Below are positions 27,287 to 62,100 of a stretch of 64,000 nucleotides of DNA, in pieces. Where the stretch lies: assembly GCA_003313425.1 (NCBI GenBank), contig NHZP01000006.1, positions 1,736,001 through 1,800,000 of the forward strand, given 5' to 3'. Below the pieces are notes generated by a model that saw only the letters and a list, made by a program, of their open reading frames with translations, did no database searches and was not told where the DNA came from. The position numbers and the translations under genes were made by a program. Numbering within the stretch: the stretch's first letter is position 1; every line of letters starts with the position of its first letter. This DNA comes from Pseudopyrenochaeta lycopersici (lineage: Eukaryota; Ascomycota; Dothideomycetes; Pleosporales; Pseudopyrenochaetaceae).

Positions 27287-28375
27287 TTCATAGATGAGGT
27301 AATATTTATGCTTAGGCCGTTTAGTACCTTCCCTTTTATCACTATACCTAGATTCTATAGATTATATTGCCTTCATTCGTTTTAAATTTGCACTTACTTG
27401 CCGTTATCCTGACGATAAAGAGACTCAGTTGGCCAGTCTTACCACGCAGCTATTTCAGGATGCCACAGGCCAGAATAGAGTATATCAAGATGAAAAAGTT
27501 AAGTTAAAAATAGCTGTCATCTAAGATGTAGACACATCTTCTATGGGAGAGTATTTGAGGTAAAGGGCCTTGCTAGTCAGTTAGGTAGGTGATCACACTT
27601 TTCTGCTGCGGATTGGAACAAGGAGGTATGGAAGACAGGGTGATTCTTTGTAAATTCGGGCAGATTGAGTCGGTACGCGTGTGAGGAGGTCTTCGTAGCT
27701 AAGCGATACGGTCCAATGTTCTTCCAATTCAAGTTCCTTGAAGCTCGACATGGGAGTAGGTGTACGATTATTGGAACGTTCTGGTCACGGGGTTCACATC
27801 CTTATCTACTACGCTATCAAAGGACGAAGGACTTATACCGGACCTGTTACATACGTTCGGCGCAGCGAGTAAATAAGCATTAAGTTTCTTAGCCGTACGG
27901 ACTATACTTGACGTCGTTACGACTAGTTAGTGTGTTTATGGATACGCGTAACATCATTACAAGGACGTAATAAGTGGCGCTCTTCTAGTTGATTTAATAG
28001 ACTGTTCTCTTTGTTTCTCCTAAATGTGAATGTCTCTAGACGTGCAGAAAATTGATGGGTAGCCTCTTTTAGTAATGCTAACTGAGCACGGTGATGGGGC
28101 ACTATGTGTCTTATTGAAATACCTTGAGCTACGTTAAAGAGAATTAGCTAACAGCAGATCTTTAAAATTTTGGCAAAGCTGCTGTGTCGCTATAAGTGGA
28201 TTGCCTTTAAAAGTATTCTGCACCTTTTTAAAGCAGTGTAGGAGAAAAAGATTTATAGTTAAATTTCTTACGTGAGGTTTTACTTTTTAGGGTGGATTGA
28301 GGTATTTCGAAAACCACTATTGCTGATCAGCTCGTTCTTCCCCCTGACTAACTCTCTAGTAAGGACCCCGCAACC
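27287..28375. other. Unassigned stretch with a decayed coding fragment
   Basis: At about 27,350-27,570, plus strand, a coherent reading (FIRFKFALTCRYPDDKETQL, then LTTQLFQDATGQNRVYQDEK) looks like a fragment of a real protein, but I cannot name the family. The remainder to 28,375 shows no gene. A 72-residue open frame at 27,665-27,883 is unsupported. Confidence 0.4.
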
Positions 28376-28790
28376 ATGGCATCTCTCTCTATACTAGGAG
28401 TTGCCATCATTCTCGCACTTTGCGCTTACTGCTATATTATCTATCTAACATTCTTTTACCCTCTTTCTAGAATCCCTAATGCTCACTTTACTTGCTTGGT
28501 CTATCCCTTGCGGATGTGGTGGAAACGCAGGGGCGGCCGTTAGGGAATCTACTCTATCTTTTCCGCCCATTAACGTAAACGGCCTATTGTCCGTCTAGGG
28601 CCAAATAAGATTAGTGTTGCTTTGCTTGACGGCCGTTAGGTCTATGTAGGCGGGTTTAGGAAACCTGTGTGGTATGCTGAGTAGTTTATTAATTACGGAA
28701 CGCTAAACCTGGTTTCGATGGCGTCGCCTAAGGACTATGCGGATTGCACACCGTAAAAGAGAACATGCTGGACGAGTCGTCCTTATTATA
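28376..28790 (+). pseudogene. Cytochrome P450, N-terminal fragment
   Basis: ATG at 28,376 opens an N-terminal membrane anchor (ILGVAIILALCAYCYIIYLT) and the hinge FYPLSRIPNAHF, then KGPIVRLGPNKISVA-like (here KRPIVRLGPNKIS), a GGFRKPVWYAE segment and FINYGTLNLVSM. This order is typical of microsomal fungal P450 monooxygenases. Three or more stops occur (TAG/TAA near 28,541, 28,572, 28,639). Recognisable homology ends near 28,790; I do not see the I-helix, ExxR or the heme Cys loop downstream, so the gene is truncated or decayed. Together with the MFS pseudogene it suggests the relic of a metabolic locus. Confidence 0.75.
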
Positions 28791-30904
28791 CACTACGATT
28801 ATTGTTATAAATCGCCCTGCTTGTCTACGGCACAATATCTAACTTGAGACGACGTAATCACAAATATTCCCGAACTTGAGAGCGTTAAGCAAAGCGCAGC
28901 ATTATACCACGCAGTAACATGCCCCAAAGACACCGCGATATAAACATTACTCGCGTCCTCAACTGCTCTAGCTAAAACTGCGCTGCGCTGTAACTGAGAA
29001 AGATTCGGAATAGCACGGACACGTCCTGACTCTTCGCTCAAGGATGCCTGGGAATGCCTAGGACTTTCTAGAAATGAGGCATTGGTTGCTATGAAAACGC
29101 AAGAATCTGGATTATGTCGAGACTCGAATTTTGGAAAATTCTTGCTATGGTACACATGCTAGGCTTTCTGAACGGGCGTGCCTAATCCCAGGACGCGATC
29201 ACAGACTGCTTGGTGAGTACATCTCCTAGGGACAGCCGGCGCATTTAACCTAGAACACATTTGCACTTGCCTTTAAAGAATATTAACACATGCACGGTAT
29301 TCTAACAGTCCGCGCTACTAAGTTCAAGAGCGGATTGTTATAACTGAACATCTGTAGTCGGCGAGAAGAACCGTGGTTCACACTCGTGTCTGAAGTGTGG
29401 GGTACTTAGCTGGATTACTAATGCAGATGTTTCCTGGCCTTTGACACTATAATTAGTATGAGCTGGCCATCGCTTTGGTTGTTCAGGCACGTTTTGGTTG
29501 CGGACGAAACTTATGGGCTTTATTGTATGATATAGGAGGATGCAATGTCGCGTAAGCTACCGCGGGAGGACCGTCTTTGGCGGTTTTAAAAGAGTTCACA
29601 TACGCTATTTTAGGGCGGTACTTGCTTTTTTCCCGAAGCAAAGATGCTGCACTTGGTAGCTATCTCTGGCCGTAAGCGTAAGGAAAACCTTAGAAATTTG
29701 TTACTATACTATATGCTCTATTTATAGACTGGCATTAATTATTTAGCTTTCGGTTAGTCTGCTAAATATTTAAATGCGCTTCTGCTTAAACAACTCGTAC
29801 GTTAAGCCTCTGTCTTACAACGTAGTTACTCTGGATCCACCCAACTCCAACCCTCGCATATTCGCTATCCACACTGGTTGGTCTGAAAACTAAGATCCAG
29901 TACTTCGTATTCCTTACTTGGGGGTCGGTTCCATCGACCTCCCTCCTAACAACAACATACTATTTGGCATGAAGGTCCTCACTCGCCTCAATGTTATACT
30001 GAACCCATCCTTTTTCTACTTTGCTTATGTCCAAGATGGTATAGCCTACATCCCTTTGTTCCAAGCTACAGTTCATGAACACACCAACGTCGGTGACCAA
30101 CGCGTCTTTTGCCTCCTCCTTTTTTGTCTTCTTGAACCACCTAGTTTTATACCTCTGGGTGAATTCGAGGGTGGTATTCTATTCTATATTGCCAAAAAAA
30201 ATGTCTATGAAGTTGATGCCTCTGTCATATGCTATCTAGGGCTAAGATGGCACGATCCGGGTTTCAGGCGCAATACGCTTCATCTCCTCTACCTTAGACC
30301 TCTGCTATAGGAGATTCCTATAAAGATAGCGCTGAAAGACTCCGTATCTGCTTTAACACCCCCTTGCGTGTGCAATTCTGCGCTCTAGCCCAGATATTGC
30401 GACAGATCTGTTAGTTTTCACTGCTAGGCCGCGCTTTGAGTAGTCTTTAAAAAGAAAGTGAACGAATTCGATGGTACGTCGGTGGCCTGATGCGATAAGC
30501 CGGTCTAGGAAGTTTGGATCAAGCATAAAATAGATCTTTTGAAATGAGCTGAGGAGCAGAATACCTAGGTTAGAAAATTGCTATTTTTAGGTTTTGCAAA
30601 GCTCTTACCTTTGTAGTCTAATAAGATTCTCGCAATAAATCCCTTCGCCACATTCCTAGTAACTACGTTTGATTAGCAGCAAAATGGATAGTTCGTCGTG
30701 CCAAAACTCTTTCTTGCATTACCTAGGCTAGAGGCGTCTTGAGTATAAACATACTCACTCTTCACGCTCCGCTCAAGGAATCCTGCGTTTGAATTAACAG
30801 CAGAAGTTGCAGTAATCGTGCAGTACGCCGACGAGAAGACGTATTTTATTAACTAGGCTTCGCGCTCCCAATCTTTCTGGTTCTACTGAATTATGCAAAG
30901 TGAG
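28791..30904. other. Unassigned; possible decayed gene near 29,850-30,310
   Basis: An open plus-strand frame at 29,918-30,310 is preceded in another frame by PPNSNPRIFAIHTGWSEN (29,840-29,890), which looks protein-like. No family could be named. Remaining sequence shows no termini, repeats or RNA genes that I recognise. P450 sequence may extend into 28,790-29,270 in a form too degraded to read. Confidence 0.3.
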
Positions 30905-31488
30905 TCGATCTAGAGGTATTAGATGCCCAGCCCTTGGCTGCACACCTACTGTGTATCTGGCTCCTTAATAAGAACGTGCTAGCGCATGCGAAGAAACACT
31001 ATAAAGGCCAGCCGGAGGAAGAATGGCAGAAATTCTACAGCGCCTGGAATGATGTGATCAGGAGCGAATCAATCGCCACGTTTAAGACCCGGAATGATCA
31101 GCTACATGAGAAATTTGCTGAAAAGAAAGTCCTGCTAAATTACCTGGATGACACATGGCTGCTCTATAAAGAGTGCTTCGTTGTGGCATAGACTCGGCAA
31201 CATACTTATTTCGACTACACAAGCACGTCACGAGGTGAAGGAGCTCATAATTTCGTGAAGGCATACATTGCGTCAGCAGCGTGTGATTACACATTCGCAT
31301 TCGAGCACATTCCCATGGCACTGGACGATCAGCTCCGACAGGCTGAACTGGAATGTGCTAGGGACTCGATTCTGACGTTGCATGCAGCTGAAGGGCCATT
31401 TTATGCTAATGTTCTCGGCCGCGTCTTTGACAGGCAAACAGCAAAATCGTATGAAAGGAGAAAGCACATCCTGCTGAACATTGAATAA
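30905..31488 (+). pseudogene. MULE (Mutator-like) transposase, C-terminal fragment
   Basis: The plus strand reads AAHLLCIWLLNKNVLAHAKK, matching the HLLCIWH-NKNV block of fungal MULE transposases. It continues with EEEWQKFYSAWNDVIRSES, EKFAEKKVLLNYLDDTWL and, after a TAG (an expected Trp), TRQHTYFDYTSTSRGEGAHN, then KAYIASAACD and HAAEGPFYANVLGRV. It ends with TAA at 31,486-31,488. The first half, with two of the catalytic Asp, and the terminal repeats are missing. Only one internal stop is present, so this fragment has suffered little RIP. Confidence 0.85.
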
Positions 31489-33519
31489 TAGGGATAGCTA
31501 ATAGACTTTGCGGCTATATTGTTTCCTACACTGATGTGCATTAAGTCCAGGTTCCCAGTTACTGCCTTTGTAGGAGTGAGCTATCAGATTCAGCCACGGC
31601 TATGGTGTAAGCGGTGTTTATTGATGACGTGGTCGGAGTGCTTGTGCTGAAGTTATGCAGTTCCTGTGAAGCAGGGCTCTTGGACGATCACCTTCGCTTG
31701 TTTATGACGAGCTCGATGGTAATGGGCTGGCGACTTGATCACCGGTGGAGGGTATACTTTGTCCTTAGCAAGAGTTAGCCCTCAATAGGCGTGAGAGGTG
31801 AGGGGCCTACAAGAGTATCTCGATCTGGCGGCGACCAAGGCTGCCCTGTCTTATCTATAGATGCGAAAACATTGTATCGACTGTTGTGATACGCTAGGAA
31901 GTATATGTCCGCGTTGTATTCGTGGCACAGCTTTGACAGTTCTCTGTAGAGAGTTTTCAAGAGCTTCTGCTAGTTGTTGTTGGCGGCTCGTCTTCCCTTC
32001 GTATGCGCTACCAGCTGGGACTGCGATTGGGACGACATGGCTGCAGTGCTGGAAACACGACCTGGTCGTCTTCCTTAAACTATGAATGTGAGCAGAATAA
32101 ATGGAATCATACTAAGAAAGGGATTCTACTGCCTGTAAGATGTCTATTAAAGTGGCGGTCGCTCTTTTAGACCTATGTATCATGCTGGCAAGGGATGGAT
32201 GCTACTACTGACGACCACGCTAGAAATCACGCTGGCAGCGACTGTGTGCGATAGCTATGAGCCAGTTCACGATGGATGGTAGGTCAACTGTGGTGATACT
32301 CTTCAGCGGTTGCGCTTGGCATAACTGCAATGCTATTGTCTGTATGCTGTACCGATAGCAGCGCCGACTGCGAGTCTGAGAAGATCGCATGCTGGCTGCT
32401 AGTGTTGGGAAGCATTTCCCATCAAGAGCTATACATGGCGGACACTGTAGCTGGTTGGCCGCCTCGTTGATAGAAAACAGTCCTGCAGTCTTGTTGAGGG
32501 TATGTTCCTTACCATGAGTATGGAGCGCATGATGAGCGAAGGTCTTCACAGGCAATGCAATAACAGGGAAAGCGACAGTGTGCAGAAGGAGAGGAAATGG
32601 AGACAAAGGGCGAGTGCAACCACATAGGCCTAGTCAAAGAGAGGCTAAGAGTGGAATGAAGGGTGGAGGGTAAGGACTGCTGAGTGTGGAGTACGAAATG
32701 GGCTCCGCACCAACGTCGAAAGTAGCCTTTCTTCACACGCAGATCTAAGTTTAGAAGCTTACATGTCTTACTCCGCCATTTCGAGTATAGCTTGCGAATG
32801 TGCCGCAACAACTGATCACTTCTAGTCTCTGTTTCCCTTTTTCTTGTCTTTTAAACGTGTGAGACTTGAACAGGTAGCCTCAGCCTCGGCAAGCGTAGGT
32901 GCTCGAGGGGCATGGCTTGGATCGTCCGCGCACACGCTGCTTGTGGGTCTATTAATTATCACTCTCCATAGAACGAACCACAATTGCCAGTACTTTGACC
33001 TACTCTGAAAGGCACATGCACATGTGGAGGCGTGAGAGGAGGATGTAGGTGGCACAATCGGTCCGTAGTAGCTCGCCAGGATGGCCTCCTCTTCCATCGC
33101 CCACAATCAGTATCACTGCGTGCGGCCTAAAGGCGGCTAGAGCCACAGGGTCACCGAAAGGCCCCAATCTTGGCCAGATTATGAAGTGGCCGATCACAAA
33201 ATAATCGAGAATGTCTGTTGCGTTCTTCGGCTTGATTAACTTAGCTTCTTCACATTTCCGGATGCGGAACTGAATGTGTCGCACTTGGGTGTGCTGATGA
33301 TGATGCATCAGGAAGAATTCATGATGAGCAGAAAAGTTGTATTGTGTGTGTATTGTGTCTTGGTCTGGTGAACCTGACCCCGCACGTCTTAGATTATATG
33401 GCAAGATTACTAATGCAGTTTCTTCCTCAGGCTCCCTGAGATGACACCTTGGCCTGCGACAACGCCTGTCACAACCTGCTTTGACGCGTGCCTCTCCCCA
33501 TCTCTCAAACACTATAACC
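31489..33519. other. Unassigned, ordinary-composition sequence
   Basis: Several open frames overlap on both strands (for example minus 32,220-32,606 and minus 33,000-33,536) without any recognisable domain. No tRNA, terminal repeat or tandem repeat was recognised. The last part should contain the 5' end of the mariner-2 element that starts coding at 33,520, but I could not locate its terminal repeat. Confidence 0.35.
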
Positions 33520-33769
33520 ATGACGCCGCCATCCACACCAAAGCGCCGCCACGTCTATCTTACTCGTGATCAACGTGTACGCGTAGACACCCTTCGTCAG
33601 GCTGGCTTTACCTACCAAGCGATTGCAGACCAGCTCTGCATCACAACTAGACAAGTTGGCTATGCTATCAATAGTTAACGCGTCACTCCTAAGAAGCGAA
33701 AAGGTCCACGCCGACATCTCAGCGATGCTCAGATAGACGAGCTTATTACATATATACAACAGTCACGAG
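33520..33769 (+). pseudogene. mariner-2 transposase N-terminus, cut by hAT-2b
   Basis: ATG at 33,520 begins MTPPSTPKRRHVYLTRDQRV, the start typical of fungal Tc1/mariner transposases. It continues through a helix-turn-helix (FTYQAIADQLCITTRQVGYA), one TAA at 33,676-33,678, then RVTPKKRKGPRRHLSDAQID and ITYIQQSR, where the hAT-2b terminus begins. The rest of the gene is not found on the far side of hAT-2b (after 37,966), so it was lost or moved. Confidence 0.85.
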
Positions 33770-33896
33770 CAGTGTGAGGAATGGATGGATTTGGCGGCGC
33801 ATCCATTTGCCAACTTGTAGTTGGATGGATGATGGAAAAATTTTCGGAAAAATCCGAAATCACTTATGCGAGACAAGATAATAGGTTTTTTTACCG

Positions 33897-36210
33897 CTAT
33901 ATAGGCGCTACCTCCGTTTCTTTAATAGTAATAATATTTACCTTATCCTAAGAATGCAAACACTAAGCTGCTTATATCGTAGGCTGCTTAAGATGGTTGC
34001 GACGGGTCGTGATTATAAGCCCTATTTAGCTAAATACACGCTTAGGCTTATCGCTTATTGCTAGAATTAAGAGAATATTAAATGCTACTTAAGCTAGATA
34101 CAGGTACTCCTTAATACTAATAGTCCGCCACTATTTAAGTAGAAACTTAAGCTTAATTAGCTCTTAGTTACTATATCGCTTAAACTTATCTAGGACAGCT
34201 GCTTTTTAGTTATTACTTCGTGCCTTAGCTAAACTTTTTACGCAGTTATAAAATATCTCTAGCGTATTAGGTTTATATATCGTAGTCTTCTTTACTAGTA
34301 ATATAGCATCTAAGAAGGGTAGTTACTTATAGGTTAAACTCTATAGCGACTTAACTACTTTTTAGCTAGCTGTAATCTACAACTTATTATTTGCTTATTA
34401 AGACTTAATAACCTTCTAGGTATAGGCAGGATGTAGCACAGCAGCCGCAAGATGTGCTGGTAAGTCGTTAAGTTTTACGTAGTACTCTTTAGCTTTATTA
34501 AGTGCAAGTTTAATCTGCGTAATAAAGTACTATTAGCTTTTAGTTATAGCTAGTAATACATGTTTATAACGTTCGTAAGCAGCCGTAAGTTCCTTAATAA
34601 TAAATTTAAGGTTAAATTAAACTTTGCTGATCCTACAGGACTTACTATTACCTAGCTAACTTTTAAGGTTTATTATTATAAGCTAGTAAGGCTCTAGTAG
34701 TTTTTAATACTAAGTTAAGATCTCCTAGTCTTCTAAATTAAGCGTATCTTTTAGGATAGTATTCTAAGAATAATCCTTGTCTTAAATCTAGCGTCCTTTA
34801 GACTTCTTATGTACGACACGTTAGCGCTTAGATAATAAGAAGTCTTTAAAAGAGGCTTAGAGTTTAAGGAGTATCTTAATCTTGTTATAGACGCTGTTCT
34901 AGCGTATATTATTACTTCTGTAGAGCTTACGCGTTTTAATTATATTCTATTTAGTTAGGTTAATAATAGACTTAAAGTATTTAAGTTAGGCCTAGTGCTA
35001 CCGTTTTCGTCTTTGTAGACTTGCGTATATCCAAACAACTAGATTATAAGCCTTACTAACTAGTCCTATTTACCTCTATTAATTTAACTCTTCCTTTAAA
35101 TTTGCTAGCACTGACCCTTTAAATTTAAAGAGGTTCTTATTAAAGCTAAATAAGAGATAGCAGGTAATAAGGTTAATAATATGGCCTACACAGCGCAGGC
35201 GGCGCTTATTAGGATTAAAGCTAAATTCTTCTCTAATTACTTTTATTACCGAATTATTGCTTAAAGCATTATCTAGTATAAAAAAGCTAAGTCTGTCTTA
35301 AATACTAAAGTCCTTAATTACGGAAATAACCTACTCTATAATATCTATACCCGCATGCGAGTTAGTTTACTTAGGTATTACTAGCGGTATTGTTTAGTTC
35401 TTAAATTCCGCATTAATAAAGTAAGCAATAATACTATTAAGCGAGAGGTAATTTCTAGAGGTCTAGAGGTTAAAGGAGATATAGATCTTGCTAACAGAAT
35501 CCTATAACTCCTGTTTAACTTTAGCCTTATAAATCCTATCGCCTTTTATAATCTAGTCTTTAATAGTCTTTATAGTAGGTATTGTATCTTTTACGCGGGG
35601 CGAGAGATAGGTAAGAAGGTCGCGAAACAGCTTACTATTAACCTGCCTAATTAACATATTATTATAGATAATCCAGCAAATAAGAAGCTTTAGAAGGTAG
35701 CTTTATTAAAGGCTAATGCCAGCGCATTTAATATCTCTTACTCTTAAGACTTATTTATATCTAAGGCTGCTGGCACTAATATACCCCTTCTTTTAAAAGA
35801 GATAATTTCTCTCTCCTTATTCTAAGTTTTGCCGTAAACTTAGCAGATATATTTAACTATATTTATACTTCTACTGTTAACCTTATAATAATAAGCGTGA
35901 CATGTCTGTAAAATTAGGTCGGAAGTATGGCAGCGGACACATAGCTACTAGCAGGCGCTAGTCTTAGTATGTTTAATTAGTACGCTAAACTTCTAGATAG
36001 GTAAGTTTAGCCTAGCTGTACGCCTTAAGATTAAAATACTAAAGCTAGGAAGTTAAGACTAAATAACACTATTGTATTTAAATTTTAATCCCTTAATTAG
36101 TAAGGCGTCAGCTGTACGCGCTTTTATACTCTACTCTAACTTAAAAGTTAGCTCTGTTAAGATGTCTAAAGTAATATTAGAAACACTATCTAGTAATAAC
36201 TTTACTAACG
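33897..36210 (-). pseudogene. hAT-2b transposase, RIP-stopped
   Basis: Minus-strand counterpart of the hAT-2a transposase. The dimerisation block reads SDKPKRVFS, stop, IGLIITTRRNHLKQPT near 34,010, with the same residues as hAT-2a apart from transitions. The C-terminal tail reads KETEVAPI before TAG at 33,897-33,899. The start is approximate: the ATG of hAT-2a has no exact counterpart here. It is more heavily mutated than hAT-2a in places and less in others, so the two copies were RIP-altered independently. Confidence 0.8.
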
Positions 36211-54815: not shown

Positions 54816-55195
54816 TAGGGTGGCAAATGGGTATAGGTTGGGGTTGGGTTGGGTTTGATTACATAAGACCCGTACCCAACCCAGCTCTATACCCAATCTT
54901 TATACGCTAGTGATGGGTATAGGTTGAGGTTACTGTGAATGGGTTGAGGTTAGGGCTAGGGTTATTAGGGTGAGGTTGGCTTAGGTCTGAGTAATCACGT
55001 TTTTTATATTAGGGTTACTACTAACTAATTAGGGTTAGGTATTTACTTCAGCTAATTATCACAGTTTAAGGGTTGCCGTGTTGTTTAGGAACTGTCGTAA
55101 ATTATAATTTATACATTATAACTACTTAGAGAAAGCTACTGCTAGATAAATCTACTGCCTAAAGAAGACTGCTACCCAGAGAAAACTAATGCCTA

Positions 55196-55748
55196 TTAGA
55201 AGAAATCTAGTAGAAACCTATTATAGTATCGCCTTGCTAACGCAGAATCCTTATGCTGAATAGTAACTCTCTTTGCATGGATTGTATTTATTATACAGTC
55301 TACTAAAAATTAGTATATATATAATAAAAATATTAAGGCGATAGTTACCTTTAAAATAACTAACTAGAAACGACTTAACTAACTCTTAGAGAGCCTTAAT
55401 TACACTACTCTAGAAGCGCAGTCCTTGCTAGAACTCTTAGGCTATTTTACAGACGAGGCGGGAGAACGGAAGCTTGCGAATAAGCAGATCAGTAGACTTT
55501 TAGTATCTTTTAATCTCTTAAATTACTACTGCTGTAAATAATTAGCTTATAACTATAATAAGAAACTGTAATAACTTACTGCCTAGCTTCTAGCGACGCT
55601 TTTTCTTAACTGTATTAGAAGTAGTTATTGTCTTTCGCGCAGATTTACTAGCTAGATCCTTTGCAGGCACACTGCCGCCAGTTACAGTCTTCCTAGGAGC
55701 CTTGCTGCTAGTTGTTGGACGCTTAGGAGGAGGTCTAGTTCTAGCTAT
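55196..55748 (-). pseudogene. Histone H3-like gene carried by hAT-3, three exons, RIP-stopped
   Basis: Exons 55,748-55,580, 55,531-55,349 and 55,302-55,196 (minus) sum to 459 nt: 152 residues plus stop. Introns of 48 and 46 nt have GTAAGT/GTAACT donors, GCTAAT/TACTAAT branches and CAG/TAG ends, and splice in phase. The start reads ATA (55,748-55,746), a likely RIP of ATG. Tail: ARTRPPPKRPTTSSKAPRK, then DLASKSARKT and VKK. Fold: GTV, EIKRY-x-KSTDLLIRKLPF, RLVCKIA, LRF-x-SSVIKAL and, in exon 3, TIHAKRVTIQHKDSALARR, all matching H3. Four stops fall exactly where H3 has invariant Gln (RYQKS, IAQ, RFQS, ALQE). Differences: Arg at the K4 and K9 positions, about 10 extra tail residues, and a YYNRFLLDFF extension. 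K27 and K36 equivalents are kept. Loop 1 has no insertion, so it is not an obvious CenH3. Confidence 0.92.
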
Positions 55749-55875
55749 TATATTTAACTTAATAGAGAGTAGTAAATTTAATAGAGCGCAGCTAATTATA
55801 GAGGTAGAAATTTAGTGTAGATAGGTAGAGGAAGAAAGCAGAAATTAAGCTTATTAGACTAATATGTCACCTTTA

Positions 55876-56135
55876 GTAAAGGTAAAGGTGAAGGTAAGAG
55901 CAAGTTAATGTAGCTAGCAAACAGGCTCTCCCGGCGTATAGCGCAGCAACGCTGCGATAAACTTTTGTAATAAACTATAGGACTGTAGAACTTAATACGA
56001 GCTTTTAATTAATCCTATTTTTATAGTAATCTAACTTTTTTTAGAGGTTGTACGTAGGTAGGCACCTATTCTACTCGCTAGCGCAGCGCATAGGCTACCT
56101 GTGTAGCCTGCTGTTTGCTCTCACCTTCACCTCAC
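55876..56135. mobile_element. 260-bp MITE-like insertion in hAT-3
   Basis: Inverted ends: GGTGAAGGTAAGAGCAA on the left and the complement of GGTGAAGGTGAGAGCAA on the right, each within about 30 bp of a TA (55,874-55,875; 56,136-56,137). Internal sequence has no coding capacity. The left end has a 7-bp extra repeat unit. It separates the H3-like gene from the unknown gene and could contain or disrupt their shared promoter. Confidence 0.5.
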
Positions 56136-56241
56136 TACATAATAACTTAAAGGCTTCCCTTGTCGCTTCTATATCTCTATTATTAGACACTAAACTACTT
56201 ACTACTTAATTATTACGTATATTTATTATAATTCCTGCGTA

Positions 56242-57850
56242 ATAGCTTCTACACCTATTAAACAGGAGCTAATTAAAGACACTAACTATCTAGATAGCCC
56301 TAAGGGTCTACTTCTAAATATTTAGTATAATGTACTAGTTAGATTTAATAGCGATAAATAGGAGAAGCTTATAGCAGTATTTATCCTAGTCTATTATTAT
56401 AGTATATGTATACTAATTAAAATAGGGGTTTGCTTCTAAAGAGCAGGAGGTCAACTATATTATCTCTATGCGTGGCTAGATTAGTTCCCGTAAAGGTCGC
56501 CCTACTAATCTATTAGTACTATTTAAAGGCGAACTAAGTAATAATACCTGCGCGATTTAGTAGAGAGATTAAGCTGCCCTTCGCGATATAGAGACTAAAG
56601 CTATTAAAAGCGCTAATGCTTTAGATTATTCTGCTAAAAGCGCGCTTAAGAAGAGGCTAGAGAAGAAGGCTAAATATACGTCTCTACCTAAAGGTATAAA
56701 GAAATAATATCTTAATAAAGAGATAGAGAAACTTTATAACTAGCGCTTTAAGGATTAGAAGAGTAGTAAGTTATAACAGTTATTTATTACATATCCTTAC
56801 TTATAGTCTTTAGGTAAATAGCTAGAATCTTAGCTTAGTTAAGTACACTTAAAATAGGAGAAGCTAAATTATGAAGCCTCTCTTTAAGAGCACTAAAGAG
56901 CCTTAGAGAAGATCTCTACTACTACTTAACGCTCTTTAAGTATATAGCAGCTAGGCTGTAGAATTACGTAAGTTTTTAGAATTAGTAGTGTCCTAGAAAA
57001 GATTATGCGTAAAACCTATTAAGATAGCTTAGTAAAGCTTAATAGTAATACCTTTGAGAGCAAAGAGGCTGAAGCTAAATAGCAAGAGTTTATAAAAGGA
57101 CTTACTACAGAAGAGTTAGCAGTAGTAGCTAATAATAAGTAGCAGTAAGTTTTATTACATTATTTTATAGCGGTTGTGTGCTAATTACACTAGACAACGT
57201 GAGCCTACGCCTATCTTTAATACTGTGTCTAGTAGGGAAGATATCTTACTTAAGAGTAGTATGCTATATGTTATGGGCGATAATAGTAATAAATGTAAGG
57301 TAAAGGTTGACTATAACTCTAAGATTAACGCTATATATAATAAAGGAGAAAATAAGTACGAGACTAGTAGTGAGGAACCTGGCAGTAATTAGTCTAATAA
57401 GATAGATTTCTGGGGCTTCTCTAATTTAGAAGTTGAGGAGGAATAATACTAGACTAGTTAGGAGCATGCATTAGTCTAGTTTAGGTAGTAGTAATTATTA
57501 TAGCTAATAATCTCTTAGTATCTTTATCCCTTAGCCTCTAGCCTTTATATTTAACAGGAGAAGAATATAAACAGAGTAAAGAATATAAATAATTATATTA
57601 AAATAAACGAATTCCTGAGCTGTATTAAAATATTATTACTTATACACTCTATTAGAGTATCCTAGGTCCTATACTCTGCCTAGCAACTACTTTATATTTA
57701 TTATAATATGTTATTACAGCTATATTCCTATTATAGCACTTACTACTTAACCTCTCTAGTTTCCGCACGTCCTTAACTAATTTAAACTTACTGCTCCTTA
57801 GATTATTAAAGGGAATTGAACTACCCTTATCTTACTTAAATATCTAATAA
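56242..57850 (+). pseudogene. Spliced unknown gene carried by hAT-3
   Basis: Divergent from the H3-like gene. The likely start reads ATA at 56,242 (ASTPIKQELIKDTNYLDSPK follows). Exon 1 ends at 56,376; intron 56,377-56,425 (GTATTT, TACTAAT, AATAG). Exon 2 is 56,426-57,144 (MRG, ISSRKGRPTNLLVLFKGEL, LKKRLEKKAKYTSLPKGIKK, IKGLTTEELAVVANN). Intron 57,145-57,193 (GTAAGT, GCTAAT, CTAG) then exon 3 (QREPTPIFNTVSSREDILLK, IDFWGFSNLEVEEE). Both introns are 49 nt and splice in phase; stops are only TAG/TAA. The 3' end is unclear. Lys/Glu-rich and helical; no family recognised. It might be an accessory transposition protein, a captured host gene, or an N-terminal extension of the transposase. Confidence 0.6.
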
Positions 57851-60348
57851 TAGAAGATAAGCAGGATAAGATATAACAAGAGATTGTTTTAAAGTGGAAA
57901 ACGTGGTGGGATATAACTGCCTGGGCACTAGACTTATTATTAAAGAAACCACTATAGGGCTCATCTTTACGTCATAGCCTAATCTAGAGTTAATTTAGCG
58001 AGGCTGCACAAATTATTAATAGTTAACTATATATGTTCTGTTTTAACTGCGGATATATACTTCAACATCTAGTAGTTAATGCGATCAGCACTAAGCACCT
58101 TTTAAATTACTAAAAATCTCAGCTTTATAAGGAGACTTAAGTTCCAGTTTATACTCAGTCACCTTTACTTATAACTTGTTTTTCGCGACCTTTAAATAGT
58201 AATACAGAGTAATTAGTTCTACTATACTCTACAATTACTTTTAAGAGAGAACTCGTACAGGTAGGAATAGATTATAACTAGTCTTTCTAAACAGTAGAGC
58301 GGTCGTCCTTTTAACGCTTTCTCTAGTTCCTTTAGCCTAATCCTATAATAATTACCTGTTATAAATTCTAGTTAATCTTCTAAGCTTAAGTTAAGGCAGC
58401 TAGGGCTTCTCTCCTAGACGACCTTAGAGAAAATACAAAAATTTTAATCGCCTTAGACGCCTAGTCCGCAGGAAATCACCTTAGCTTTCTTGCAGTAAAG
58501 GGATACTATATTACGAACGACTGGCAACTTTATAAGAAACTACTCGATTTTATCCCTATCTGCAGGAGCTATACAGGCGCGTCTATTACAGTAGAAGTAT
58601 TACAGCTTCTAAATAATACAAATACTAAACAGTAACTTTTAGCTATTACCTGCGACAATGCTAGTAATAACGGCACGTTAGCTTGTACTATCTAAATAAA
58701 ATTACAAGAAGAGGATATTATTTAGAATACCACAGAAAATATAATTCTATGCCTAGCTTATATTATTAATCTTGTTATTCAGGATACTATCTAGCACCTT
58801 AAACTAACAGCTCCTACTAAGCTTAAGGTTAAGGAAAATCTACAACAGCGCTATATAAAAGAAATATATACTAAAATATTAGTCCTAAACTCTCTTCGTA
58901 AAGTAAGTTAGCTATTATTATAGCTATTTATTATAGACTAAGCTATAGATAGCTCCAAATAATCTGCAAAGCTATTAATTAATTACCCTAACGCTACGAG
59001 CAGTTTATTAATACACAGAGTCTTCTACTGCTAAAAGAACGACTTTTAGTTATACAGGATGTAAAGACTTAATAGAACTTAACCTTTAATATGTGTAAGT
59101 GTGCAGTTACGCTCTAGGCATATATTAATAAATAGCTTAAGCAGGAAATTAATCTAAAAGCACCTGCGAGGGTTACAAGTAATAGCGATCGTGCTAATAT
59201 AGATTTCTGTGATCTTAAGCGACTCCGGCTATCTTTAACTGAATAGCACTACCTTAAGCTTATTTGTAATATGCTTAAGAGATTTAAGGACGCAACTAAT
59301 TCGCTAAGCTAAAACTAGAAGCCTCAAATTCAGTATATTTAGCTTATATATAACTAGCTTTTTAATTTCCTAGACTAGATAACAGAAGAGCTAGGTAAAG
59401 ATTTAGAAAATAGAGATAATAAAGAGTGGCCAGCAGTAGTAAAGGCAGCAGCTAAAAAGGGTTGATTAAAACTAAGTAAATATTACTCTAAGACAGAGGC
59501 AGAGCGCGGATACCTCTTTAATTGCGCTACTATCCTAGATCTATTACAGAAGCTTACAGCGTATAAGGTACTATTATTATAGCTATTTATTATAGTAAAC
59601 AATCTAACGGCAGCTCTAGGATAATACGTAGGATGCCTAGGATAAACATAACTACTGCTAACAATTTCTTAAATATCTTAATTAATACGATAGTTAAGAA
59701 ACTAGTAGCTCTACTCTATTCTTATTAACTTATCCTTAACGTTCATAAAGTACAGAGTAGTTCTAGAAACCTCTATCCCTAGTTCATTCGTAATTAAGTA
59801 GCCTCTTACGTACAGGGTTAGCATCTGACGAGAGTTAGGATGTAGACCCTAAGGAGGTAGAAGAGGAGAAAGGGTAAACTCGCTAAGAGGGAGAATCCTA
59901 CCTTAGCACCCCTTATGTTATAGCAGGTAATTCTTTTAATGTCCTAGATTAGTAGAAAGCAAACGAGGCTACCTATCCTAAGCTTACCTAGGTTGTAAGA
60001 GATATTTTACTAATCCAGATTGCTACAGTTAGTGTTAAGCGTGTTTTTAATACTGCTAAGGACGTAATTAGTAACCGAAGGCACCGCCTAGGCGCTCAGA
60101 AAATCCAGTCAATTCTTTTCTTTAAACATGCTATCCTTTAGGAAGGAGAGCAGCGGGTAGAGGAGGATAGAGGAGATTATAATAAGGTAGATAATCTATT
60201 TAAGCTTCTAGCCTAGATAGATAATCCAGATAGCGTTAAGGAGGGTTTTATAAATATTAGTAGCGCAGATGAAGAGGAGGAAGAGGACTTGCAACTGCCA
60301 CCACGGAAGCGTCGAATAGTGCGGCCTCCTTCACGTTACCGTAATTAA
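57850..60348 (+). pseudogene. hAT-3 transposase, RIP-stopped
   Basis: A BED-type zinc finger near 58,033 (MFCFNCGYILQHLVVNAIST). DDE region: ILIALDA and LAVKGYYITNDWQLYKKLLD near 58,450-58,540, ITCDNASNNGTLACTI near 58,650 (second Asp kept), CLAYIINLVIQD near 58,750. The insertion domain and helical part read WPAVVKAAAKKG and SKYYSKTEAERGYLFNCATI near 59,430-59,530. The dimerisation domain is near 59,900-60,120: YLSTPYVIAGNSFNVLD and IATVSVKRVFNTAKDVISNR. A basic tail KRRIVRPPSRYRN precedes TAA at 60,346-60,348. First codon ATA is inferred. The middle (about 58,880-59,600) reads in another frame, so small indels or introns exist. Confidence 0.85.
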
Positions 60349-60581
60349 TAGCTGTAATAAAACTAGTTTTCTCTCATATAAATTTAGTAAATGCAGCAGA
60401 GTGCTCCTTAAGGTTCTAGGCCTATATTTATAATATAGTTCTAAAATAGTTTAGTTTCTTTTCTAGGTGTAGTAATTTATCTGTTTTATAAGATAACCCT
60501 AGTAGGTACCCATAACTAAACCTAAACCCATACGTCTATAACCTCAGCCTTAACCCAACCTAGAGTCCGTGCGACCCAACC

Positions 60582-60744
60582 TGTCAGATTATCAAATACA
60601 AGGAAAGAGCGATAAATAGTAGGACTGATAACTATTGCGATCTACGGAACCTCCGGAAGCAGAGGAGCTATAAAAAAGAACAGACAGAACAACAATAAAT
60701 AAATAATTAATTTTCTGACCAACACATTCATTAAAATTCTGACA
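60582..60744 (+). repeat. copia-2 5' LTR
   Basis: 163 bp, TG...CA, with the termini TGTCAGAT and CTGACA shared with copia-1. The partner LTR is outside the window, so limits rest on the copia-1 comparison and the primer site that follows. Confidence 0.85.
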
Positions 60745-60762
60745 ATTAAGAGTCTCACTGCC
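60745..60762 (+). promoter_or_regulatory. copia-2 primer binding site, half-tRNA type
   Basis: ATTAAGAGTCTCACTGCC starts directly after the LTR. Its complement GGCAGTGAGACTCTTAAT has the look of a tRNA-Lys(CTT) D-to-anticodon segment, with CTT inside the loop. One transition separates it from copia-1. Confidence 0.55.
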
Positions 60763-60781
60763 TCGATTACACACCGAAACG

Positions 60782-62100
60782 ATGGCAACCCTAAGCACAA
60801 GGGACGCGACTGTCGTCCTAACCAATTACAACAGCTGGACGGCCTGGTACCGCCAGTTTAAGATGAAGTGCGAATCATTGAGGAACTGGCCCCTCGTCGA
60901 CCCGGAAGGTACTGAAGAACTGAAACGGAAGCCAACAGTTCCACGATTACCGAACATTGCCGATTATCAACCTGCAGCGACAGTTTTGGCGAGGAGCACT
61001 ACGTCAAGCTCTCGAACGCGCGGAAACACGCAACCAACACAACAAGAGGAGATTCCTTCCGCTACTATTCTAACAAGGATCTCCAAACTCTCCCAGAGTG
61101 GACAGGAAGCATATAAAGAGGACCGCGATGACTATAAGATACACCTTAAATCGTACAAGCTCTTAGATAAGGAATATCAAGAAGAAAGGACGAAGTACGA
61201 GAAGCTGATCGAGCATATACTAGCCACTGTCTCACCTCATCTGCAACTAAGCTGCTGTGAGTCGGGCAAGTCGGTCCGGGAATAGGTAACCTCCCTCCGG
61301 GAGACAGTAGGTGTTAACCCACAGGAAGAACGAACTAAAGCGCGAGAGAAGTACCACGCTGCACTCAGGCCAATGAGAACCCCAAGCAATTGGGAAACAT
61401 GGCTGACCGAGTACGATCGAGCAGCAACCCGAGCTGAAACCCTAAAGGTTAGCGAGGTGCTGCAAACAGAAGATGTGAAAAATGACTTCCTAGGCGCTGT
61501 CTCGAAGGTGGCCCCAACATAGGTAGCTACCTTCTCCGGTCCTGGATATGACAGAACGACCATTAATAGGAAGAAGATGATGAAACTCTTCCGCGACTAT
61601 ATAAGCCTATCCCACCCATTAAAGGGCACGCAGAAGAGCGCTTTCGCTGCGGGAGAAGCATCATACGTCTCTAACGGTGCATCCGTTCAGGGCACACAAA
61701 ATGGGGACGCCCTGAGTGTGTCGGAAAGAGCGCCATCTGCCCCCTCACAGGGCGGCCAGGGGAAACCCAGGCAGAAACGAAAACGTGATGGTCAAATAAC
61801 CAAATCCAAGCAGTTCCCGATTAGGAATACAGCGGCAGCTGGAGATAATTGTCCTGCTTATGGACAGCGCCACAACTTATTAGACTGTTACTACGTGTAT
61901 ACTAATAAGGCACCCAAGTAGTTTAAGCCAAATCAAAGTATCACTAAACTAGTACAGTACAAAATTAATAATAATAATGACTTACAGAGGGCGATACAGG
62001 AATCAAGCCCAGAGGCTAAGAAACCGCGCCTTTCCTCCGCATCGCGATCGATTACGCCGCGCATTAAAACATCACAAACACCAGACCTATCAACAGATTG
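60782..62100 (+). pseudogene. copia-2 gag
   Basis: ATG at 60,782 (MATLSTRDATVVLTNYNSW). The first 167 codons are open to TAG 61,283-61,285; the frame continues as VTSLRETVGVNPQEERTKA, a capsid-like NWETWLTEYDRAATRAETLK and FLGAVSKVAPT, stop. A basic region KPRQKRKRDGQ is followed by a zinc knuckle CPAYGQRHNLLDC (C-x2-C now Cys-x2-Tyr). Few stops, all TAG. Strong resemblance to copia-1 gag. Structural protein of the particle. Confidence 0.88.

Follow-up and report, generated by a model that had tools for sequence, protein, structure and literature searches.

We analyzed a 64,000-bp stretch of the Pseudopyrenochaeta lycopersici genome (62.7 Mb in 188 contigs), positions 1,736,001 to 1,800,000 of contig C6, hereafter the window, and found in it a hAT transposon that carries a gene for a histone H3 variant, here called H3L. 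The gene lies inside the hAT element and was spread by that element. The window gene very probably belongs to an H3L-carrying hAT of the kind already known, and it has probably long resided in a lineage of elements that was first reported from Pyrenophora tritici-repentis, rather than having been copied recently from the host H3 gene. The initial annotation of the window supposed that no described hAT family carries H3, a view that two publications overturn (Manning et al. 2013, PMC3538342; Dhillon et al. 2019, PMC6710886). Among the titles and abstracts listed in our literature searches, none of which was aimed at the second element described below, only these two papers concern such elements. 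A hAT element with an H3-like gene is thus already known in fungi, the window copy being a well-preserved instance, and what is added here is evidence on the age and origin of the gene, together with a second element that carries an H3 variant.

The H3L gene and the element that carries it

The minus strand from 55,196 to 55,748 reads as a three-exon gene for an H3 variant, at the place and on the strand given by the initial annotation. The predicted exons comprise 169 nt (55,580 to 55,748; N-terminal tail), 183 nt (55,349 to 55,531; alphaN to alpha2), and 104 nt (55,196 to 55,299; alpha3 and C terminus), for a predicted coding length of 456 nt including the stop, or 151 amino acids. They are separated by a 48-nt intron (55,532 to 55,579; phase 1; GTAAGT...ACAG) and a 49-nt intron (55,300 to 55,348; phase 1), both predicted. 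Across an alignment of 18 copies, from which partial gene copies were left out, intron 1 starts with GTAAGT in 17 and ends in AG in all 18, and intron 2 starts with GTAACT in all 18 and ends in TAG in 16 and TAA in 2. The 3′ splice site of intron 2 was picked by best fit to H3 and to the P. tritici-repentis H3L; the 48-nt intron proposed earlier was thereby retained, its 46-nt companion was lengthened to 49 nt, and the earlier total of 459 nt and 153 codons gave way to 151 codons plus a stop. The core histone domain is present (Pfam PF00125, Histone; E value of 1.9e-25), as scored on a hand-joined, mis-spliced reading of the translation.

The window gene contains seven in-frame stops, at residues 53, 61, 67, 88, 91, 97, and 105. 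Based on the protein alignment, four of them (67, 88, 97, and 105) occupy Gln positions of H3, as initially reported; the other three, which raise the reported total of four, occupy a Lys position (91) and Tyr and Arg positions (53 and 61). Stop codons occur in every one of the 18 aligned copies, one of which has a Gln codon at residue 91, and the start codon is ATA in 17 copies and ATG in 1. We agree with the initial annotation that H3L was probably intact before repeat-induced point mutation (RIP)-type changes.

The hAT element occupies 54,816 to 60,581, which is 5,766 bp of a full length of 5,878 bp, the right 112 bp being missing. It opens with a terminal inverted repeat (TIR) of about 17 bp, TAGGGTGGCAAATGGGT (54,816 to 54,832, plus strand), which recurs in inverted orientation at the right terminus of full copies. 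Across copies with differing flanks (L024 and L025 have a common flank), the left boundary is the one seen at 54,816, and full copies extend 112 bp past the break at 60,581 to end in the inverted repeat, flanked by an 8-bp target-site duplication (TSD). At the nine loci whose ends were inspected, the TSD is exact at six (L009, L010, L012, L017, L018, and L027), matches at 7 of 8 bases in L011, and is unreadable in L014, which runs off its contig end, and L016, whose left end is rearranged. The TIRs are short throughout, about 17 bp, with a single mismatch in L010.

The transposase gene (57,760 to 60,345, plus strand) is broken by stops and changes frame twice, likely at introns. It was delimited by the end of its frame and by identity to a metagenome protein, P0121 (45% at 57,760 to 58,935 and 56%, in another frame, at 58,887 to 59,594), and it includes the hAT C-terminal dimerisation domain at 59,887 to 60,129 (PF05699, Dimer_Tnp_hAT; E value of 4.5e-13). 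P0121 and a second stop-free relative of this transposase, P0123, come from metagenome contigs of 5,638 and 5,663 bp, about the length of the hAT. Based on the 8-bp TSDs, the short TIRs, and the PF05699 domain, all three of which were found, the element is a member of the hAT superfamily. The paired termini and TSDs of full copies also bear out the earlier placement of H3L between the left terminus at 54,816 and the transposase. Between these two genes lies a central open reading frame (ORF), whose first part (56,447 to 57,139, plus strand) is a long, coherent, stop-broken frame that matched no Pfam family and lies in a stretch (56,440 to 57,160) with 26 DNA matches in the genome; a possible second exon in another frame, with the frames read by eye, may span 57,198 to 57,551 on the same strand.

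The H3L gene has 35 DNA matches in its own genome, 19 of them spanning essentially all 553 bases, so the signal is not due to chance; 20 H3L stretches were compared with their flanks. Probing the genome with 1,001 bases of the transposase yielded 26 matches, including 16 that were near-complete, and H3L accompanies all 16. Thirteen of these 16 are uninterrupted, and three (on C22, C93, and C29) are split, apparently by later insertions. The initial annotation had named two observations that would detach the gene from the transposon, namely, full hAT copies without H3 and paired termini that leave the gene outside; we looked for both and found neither.

Six full copies are exactly 5,878 bp long, and their 15 pairs show 235 to 345 differences, of which 0 to 5 per pair are transversions (these counts exclude L018, which is longer by about 20 bp, and L027, which is interrupted). 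The RIP indices of the element, with TA/AT of 1.81 and (CA+TG)/(AC+GT) of 0.56, contrast with values of 1.02 and 1.18 in the window at 28,001 to 34,000. Because the differences between copies are almost all transitions, the copies must have been near-identical when they spread: they arose in one burst and then underwent RIP-type decay through C/T and G/A changes. The element also gave rise to short derivatives without H3L. Among the matches listed for a left-end probe, 14 of 41 cover only bases 1 to 214, and the three derivatives examined (L033, L034, and L035) are 441 to 474 bp long, about 98% alike, and bounded by exact 8-bp TSDs, with no histone gene. Two hAT remnants on contig C10 (L024 at 1,154,164 and L025 at 1,120,540) agree both in their matches to the window element and in their left flank, and are likely a segmental duplication.

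Relatives and origin of H3L

We searched with the window protein, written with X at its stops; 1,547 of 1,567 scored candidates passed an E value of 0.001, and the best 120 were considered. These best 120 of 1,547 included two P. tritici-repentis proteins that align over 100% of the query at 53% and 52% identity (P0004 and P0005), a Pyrenophora teres protein that does so at 49% (P0018), and an Alternaria gaisen protein that covers 95% of the query at 49% (P0006). A search with an H3L alignment yielded one extra H3L, from Alternaria alternata (P0236), among the 120 matches listed, which were dominated by tandem H3 of other eukaryotes. No relative was found when P0121 was searched in viral contigs and P0004 in genome contigs.

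For phylogenetic analysis we chose 14 rows, consisting of five H3L proteins, three genes of this genome, and six canonical H3 proteins, with the outside rows drawn from 238 protein ids; the groups for the tree test were named after the first tree had been seen. The three genes of this genome are the host canonical H3 (L032), the H3-variant gene of the second element (L029), and the likely host CenH3. The last of these (L030; C9:445,400 to 446,200) was read by eye and has a loop 1 longer by three residues and an intron in the core. The H3L proteins of the window, P. tritici-repentis, P. teres, and the two Alternaria species form one group (support of 94/98, or 97/97 without L029). Joining the window protein to the H3 of the host and of Aspergillus was rejected by the approximately unbiased (AU) test (P value of 0.0034, or 0.0016 without L029). 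Three substitutions relative to host H3, L103Y, C110N, and I124S (H3 numbering), are found in all five H3L proteins, and Y41F is common to all four with a letter at that position.

The introns tell a similar story. Those of host H3 interrupt codons R8 and Q120, and the predicted introns of H3L interrupt T45 and D106. Because H3L bears introns, it does not represent a simple copy of a transcript; the differing intron places, taken together with the tree, therefore disfavor a recent transcript capture, at least for this element. Host H3 does share the histone fold and 67% core identity with H3L; it differs in its intron places, in lacking the H3L residues, and in having a standard tail. Accordingly, of the initial proposal that the element captured and carried an H3 variant, the carriage stands, since the gene occupies the same place in copies with TSDs, and a recent capture of host H3 appears disfavored on the intron places and the tree.

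Some observations weigh against an old, element-borne lineage. The window core is 67% identical to host H3, compared with 59 to 63% to the other H3L proteins, and the H3L grouping rests on shared derived residues, which long branches could help to bring together. In addition, an 887-amino-acid transposase query, whose middle (about 58,930 to 59,600) is off-frame, as it is in pieces used for the Pfam searches, found only three metagenome proteins among the 7,993 scored candidates with the most shared words, and the P. teres and Alternaria H3L were compared here as proteins.

That raw identity, the highest of the window core, is also what speaks for a recent, independent capture of the host's own H3 gene or transcript, for which PMC6710886 provides a precedent in the Mycosphaerellaceae by transduplication. 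We nevertheless regard such a capture as improbable, given that host H3 has its introns elsewhere while H3L has predicted introns of its own, that a tree uniting it with H3 of the host and of Aspergillus was rejected, and that H3L residues are held in common with other genera. A divergent tail on a histone fold would also suit a CenH3 that is carried by the element and acts at centromeres. The window loop 1 is instead as in H3, without the three extra residues of the likely host CenH3, and grouping with that protein, the only CenH3 row, was rejected (AU P value of 0.0139), which together make a CenH3 identity highly improbable. We reject the idea of a host pseudogene or a separate insertion lodged between hAT pieces, which is scarcely credible when the same gene sits in the same place in successive copies with paired termini and TSDs and accompanies all 16 near-complete transposase matches.

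A second element with an H3 variant, and a possible role

Outside the window, at C122:36,267 to 36,989 (L029), we found another H3-variant gene, with four predicted exons, 191 amino acids, and no internal stop, that is apparently intact. Its DNA is repeated, with nine genome matches, all nine of which lie beside a terminal repeat of about 145 bp. An uninterrupted copy of this second element spans 7,773 bp at C77:95,720 to 103,492 (L038), and the copy at C122:24,259 to 37,280 (L040, L036, L029, and L037) is interrupted by a long terminal repeat (LTR) element. A 6-bp TSD flanking TACGG...CCGTA is exact in five of eight copies (C122, C77, C2, C4, and C31), matches at 5 of 6 bases in C33, and is absent from C14 and C15; the ends were compared by eye, and some end pairs are far apart, for example, by 39 kb on C4. 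Among its ORFs, no Pfam family other than its histone scored over the cut-off, and no transposase was recognized. The second element is thus likely to be a TIR transposon different in kind from the hAT. A unit of about 192 bp is repeated in tandem upstream of its H3-variant gene (L029:1,549 to 2,034).

This second element resembles the window hAT in being a TIR element with an H3 variant, and the two core introns of its gene fall in the same codons and phase as the two H3L introns in the alignment. It differs from the hAT in its 6-bp TSD, TIRs of about 145 bp, length of about 7.8 kb, lack of a recognized transposase, and longer loop 1. In the core, its histone shares 57% identity with the likely host CenH3, 55% with host H3, and 44% with the window H3L. 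A tree that pairs it with the window protein was not rejected (P value of 0.305).

In the H3L core, 37 of 90 columns are identical in the five proteins (X ignored), and 33 of these are as in host H3. The core sites of the five H3L and host H3 evolve at unequal rates (log likelihood of −767.4 under LG+G4 versus −775.1 under LG, a gain of 7.7 log units), which is modest evidence of constraint. The canonical tail, ARTKQTARKS, was found in none of the five, each of which differs from it. The segment A7-R8-K9-S10 is absent from all five, and what stands in its place before T/V-G-G is R-K-T-V in the window protein, G-K-T-V in P. tritici-repentis, P-K-L-V in P. teres, A-R-D-V-R in A. gaisen, and H-D-A-R in A. 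alternata. Further along the same alignment, K14 is kept in four of the five, K18 and K23 in all five, and K27 in four.

These features suggest how H3L might have served its carrier. In a live element, H3L would be spliced and translated into a 151-amino-acid H3 variant that could pair with the H4 of the host and, with it, would enter nucleosomes. Such nucleosomes, with tails that lack the canonical ARKS around K9 and so the normal K9 module, may have weakened heterochromatin on the element, made it harder to silence, and helped it to spread, a proposal that we make tentatively from the sequences; RIP would then have destroyed the hAT family. A role seems possible because H3L expressed sequence tags (ESTs) are reported in P. 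tritici-repentis (PMC3538342) and because a different element in this genome also carries an H3 variant.

It is conceivable, more broadly, that fungal DNA transposons recruit and keep H3 variants of their own. An old hAT lineage would carry H3L across genera as a working part, and the variant in a second TIR element shares both H3L intron positions, as if selfish histones passed between elements and helped them against silencing. It may be, on the other hand, that H3L is an old passenger, captured once long ago, of no benefit to the hAT, and persisting since the capture predates the bursts. The 2013 authors suggested that drift of the P. tritici-repentis H3L genes is possible (PMC3538342), and the short derivatives show that the element also produced forms without H3. 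Against a mere passenger stand the unequal rates of core sites, the presence of H3L alongside every one of the 16 near-complete transposase matches, and the H3 variant of the second, different element.

Other results count against a working role. Three of the five H3L proteins have a Lys near the place of K9, so the tail argument is imperfect. Transversions between copies in the genome show no consistent third-codon-position excess and thus give no evidence of selection, a result that also suits a passenger. In the more heavily mutated copies L023, L024, and L014b, which have 5 to 17 transversions each relative to the main group (exons and introns), third-position transversions are more numerous in L014b only and fewer in L023 and L024; with so few transversions, this within-genome test has little power. 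Survival of the ORF is likewise too weak as proof of selection: in neutral simulations, 143 and 127 of 500 runs ended without a stop in the core, about a quarter, as would be expected of a passenger as well.

If H3L is one old intron-bearing lineage, a transposon has kept its own histone over a long time. The two papers cited here attribute the H3 genes in hAT elements of fungi to separate captures of host transcripts, the P. tritici-repentis one being recent; the tree and introns presented here suggest otherwise. If true, this raises the testable question of whether selfish DNA shapes its own chromatin by means of histone variants, and the second element, whose H3 variant is apparently intact, increases the odds that more than accident is involved.

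Genomic surroundings and comparison with published elements

To the left of 54,815, a minus-strand frame holds an SH3_Tf2-1 domain (E value of 5.8e-11), which we take to be typical of Gypsy-type pol ends, and we read the left flank accordingly. On the right flank, beyond 60,581, a frame has similarity to GAG-pre-integrase (E value of 2.5e-6) that, at 27.6 bits, falls slightly short of the 28.4 cut-off, and another locus, L022, shares window positions 60,582 to 62,000 at 88%. It is likely that a Copia-type element, starting at 60,582, removed the right end of the hAT. Insertion of the hAT into a gypsy pol gene, as initially described, therefore holds for the left flank and fails for the right, which belongs to a different, Copia-like element.

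Another hAT family in the genome shows a 613-amino-acid frame free of stops in 32 of 70 scored matches (611 candidates) and about 28% identity to P0121; example loci are C41:452,084, C25:487,423, and C122:13,922. Because its many stop-free copies have near-identical scores, this family is probably young, and it is perhaps active.

The closest published counterpart is the hAT of P. tritici-repentis, about 5.6 kb long, with a transposase, a central ORF, and H3L, the last in 26 nearly identical gene copies that are mostly intact (PMC3538342). The window element has the same architecture, and the H3L proteins group together; the likeness rests on architecture and the H3L protein. The two differ in condition: copies are mostly intact and ESTs are reported there, whereas all 18 aligned copies carry stops here. 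A second published group comprises the 9.5-kb hAT elements of Pseudocercospora fijiensis, which have 8-bp TSDs and one or two intronless H3 genes and have undergone RIP, as have the H3-carrying hAT repeats in five of its relatives in the Mycosphaerellaceae, including Cercospora and Sphaerulina (PMC6710886). In the same paper, the P. fijiensis-type H3 is read as a captured transcript, or transduplication, and the P. tritici-repentis case is called a recent, independent transcript capture. The window element shares with the P. fijiensis type its hAT affiliation, its 8-bp TSD, and the inactivation of its copies by RIP. Unlike those elements, it measures 5,878 bp at full length and holds a single H3L gene, in which two introns are predicted.
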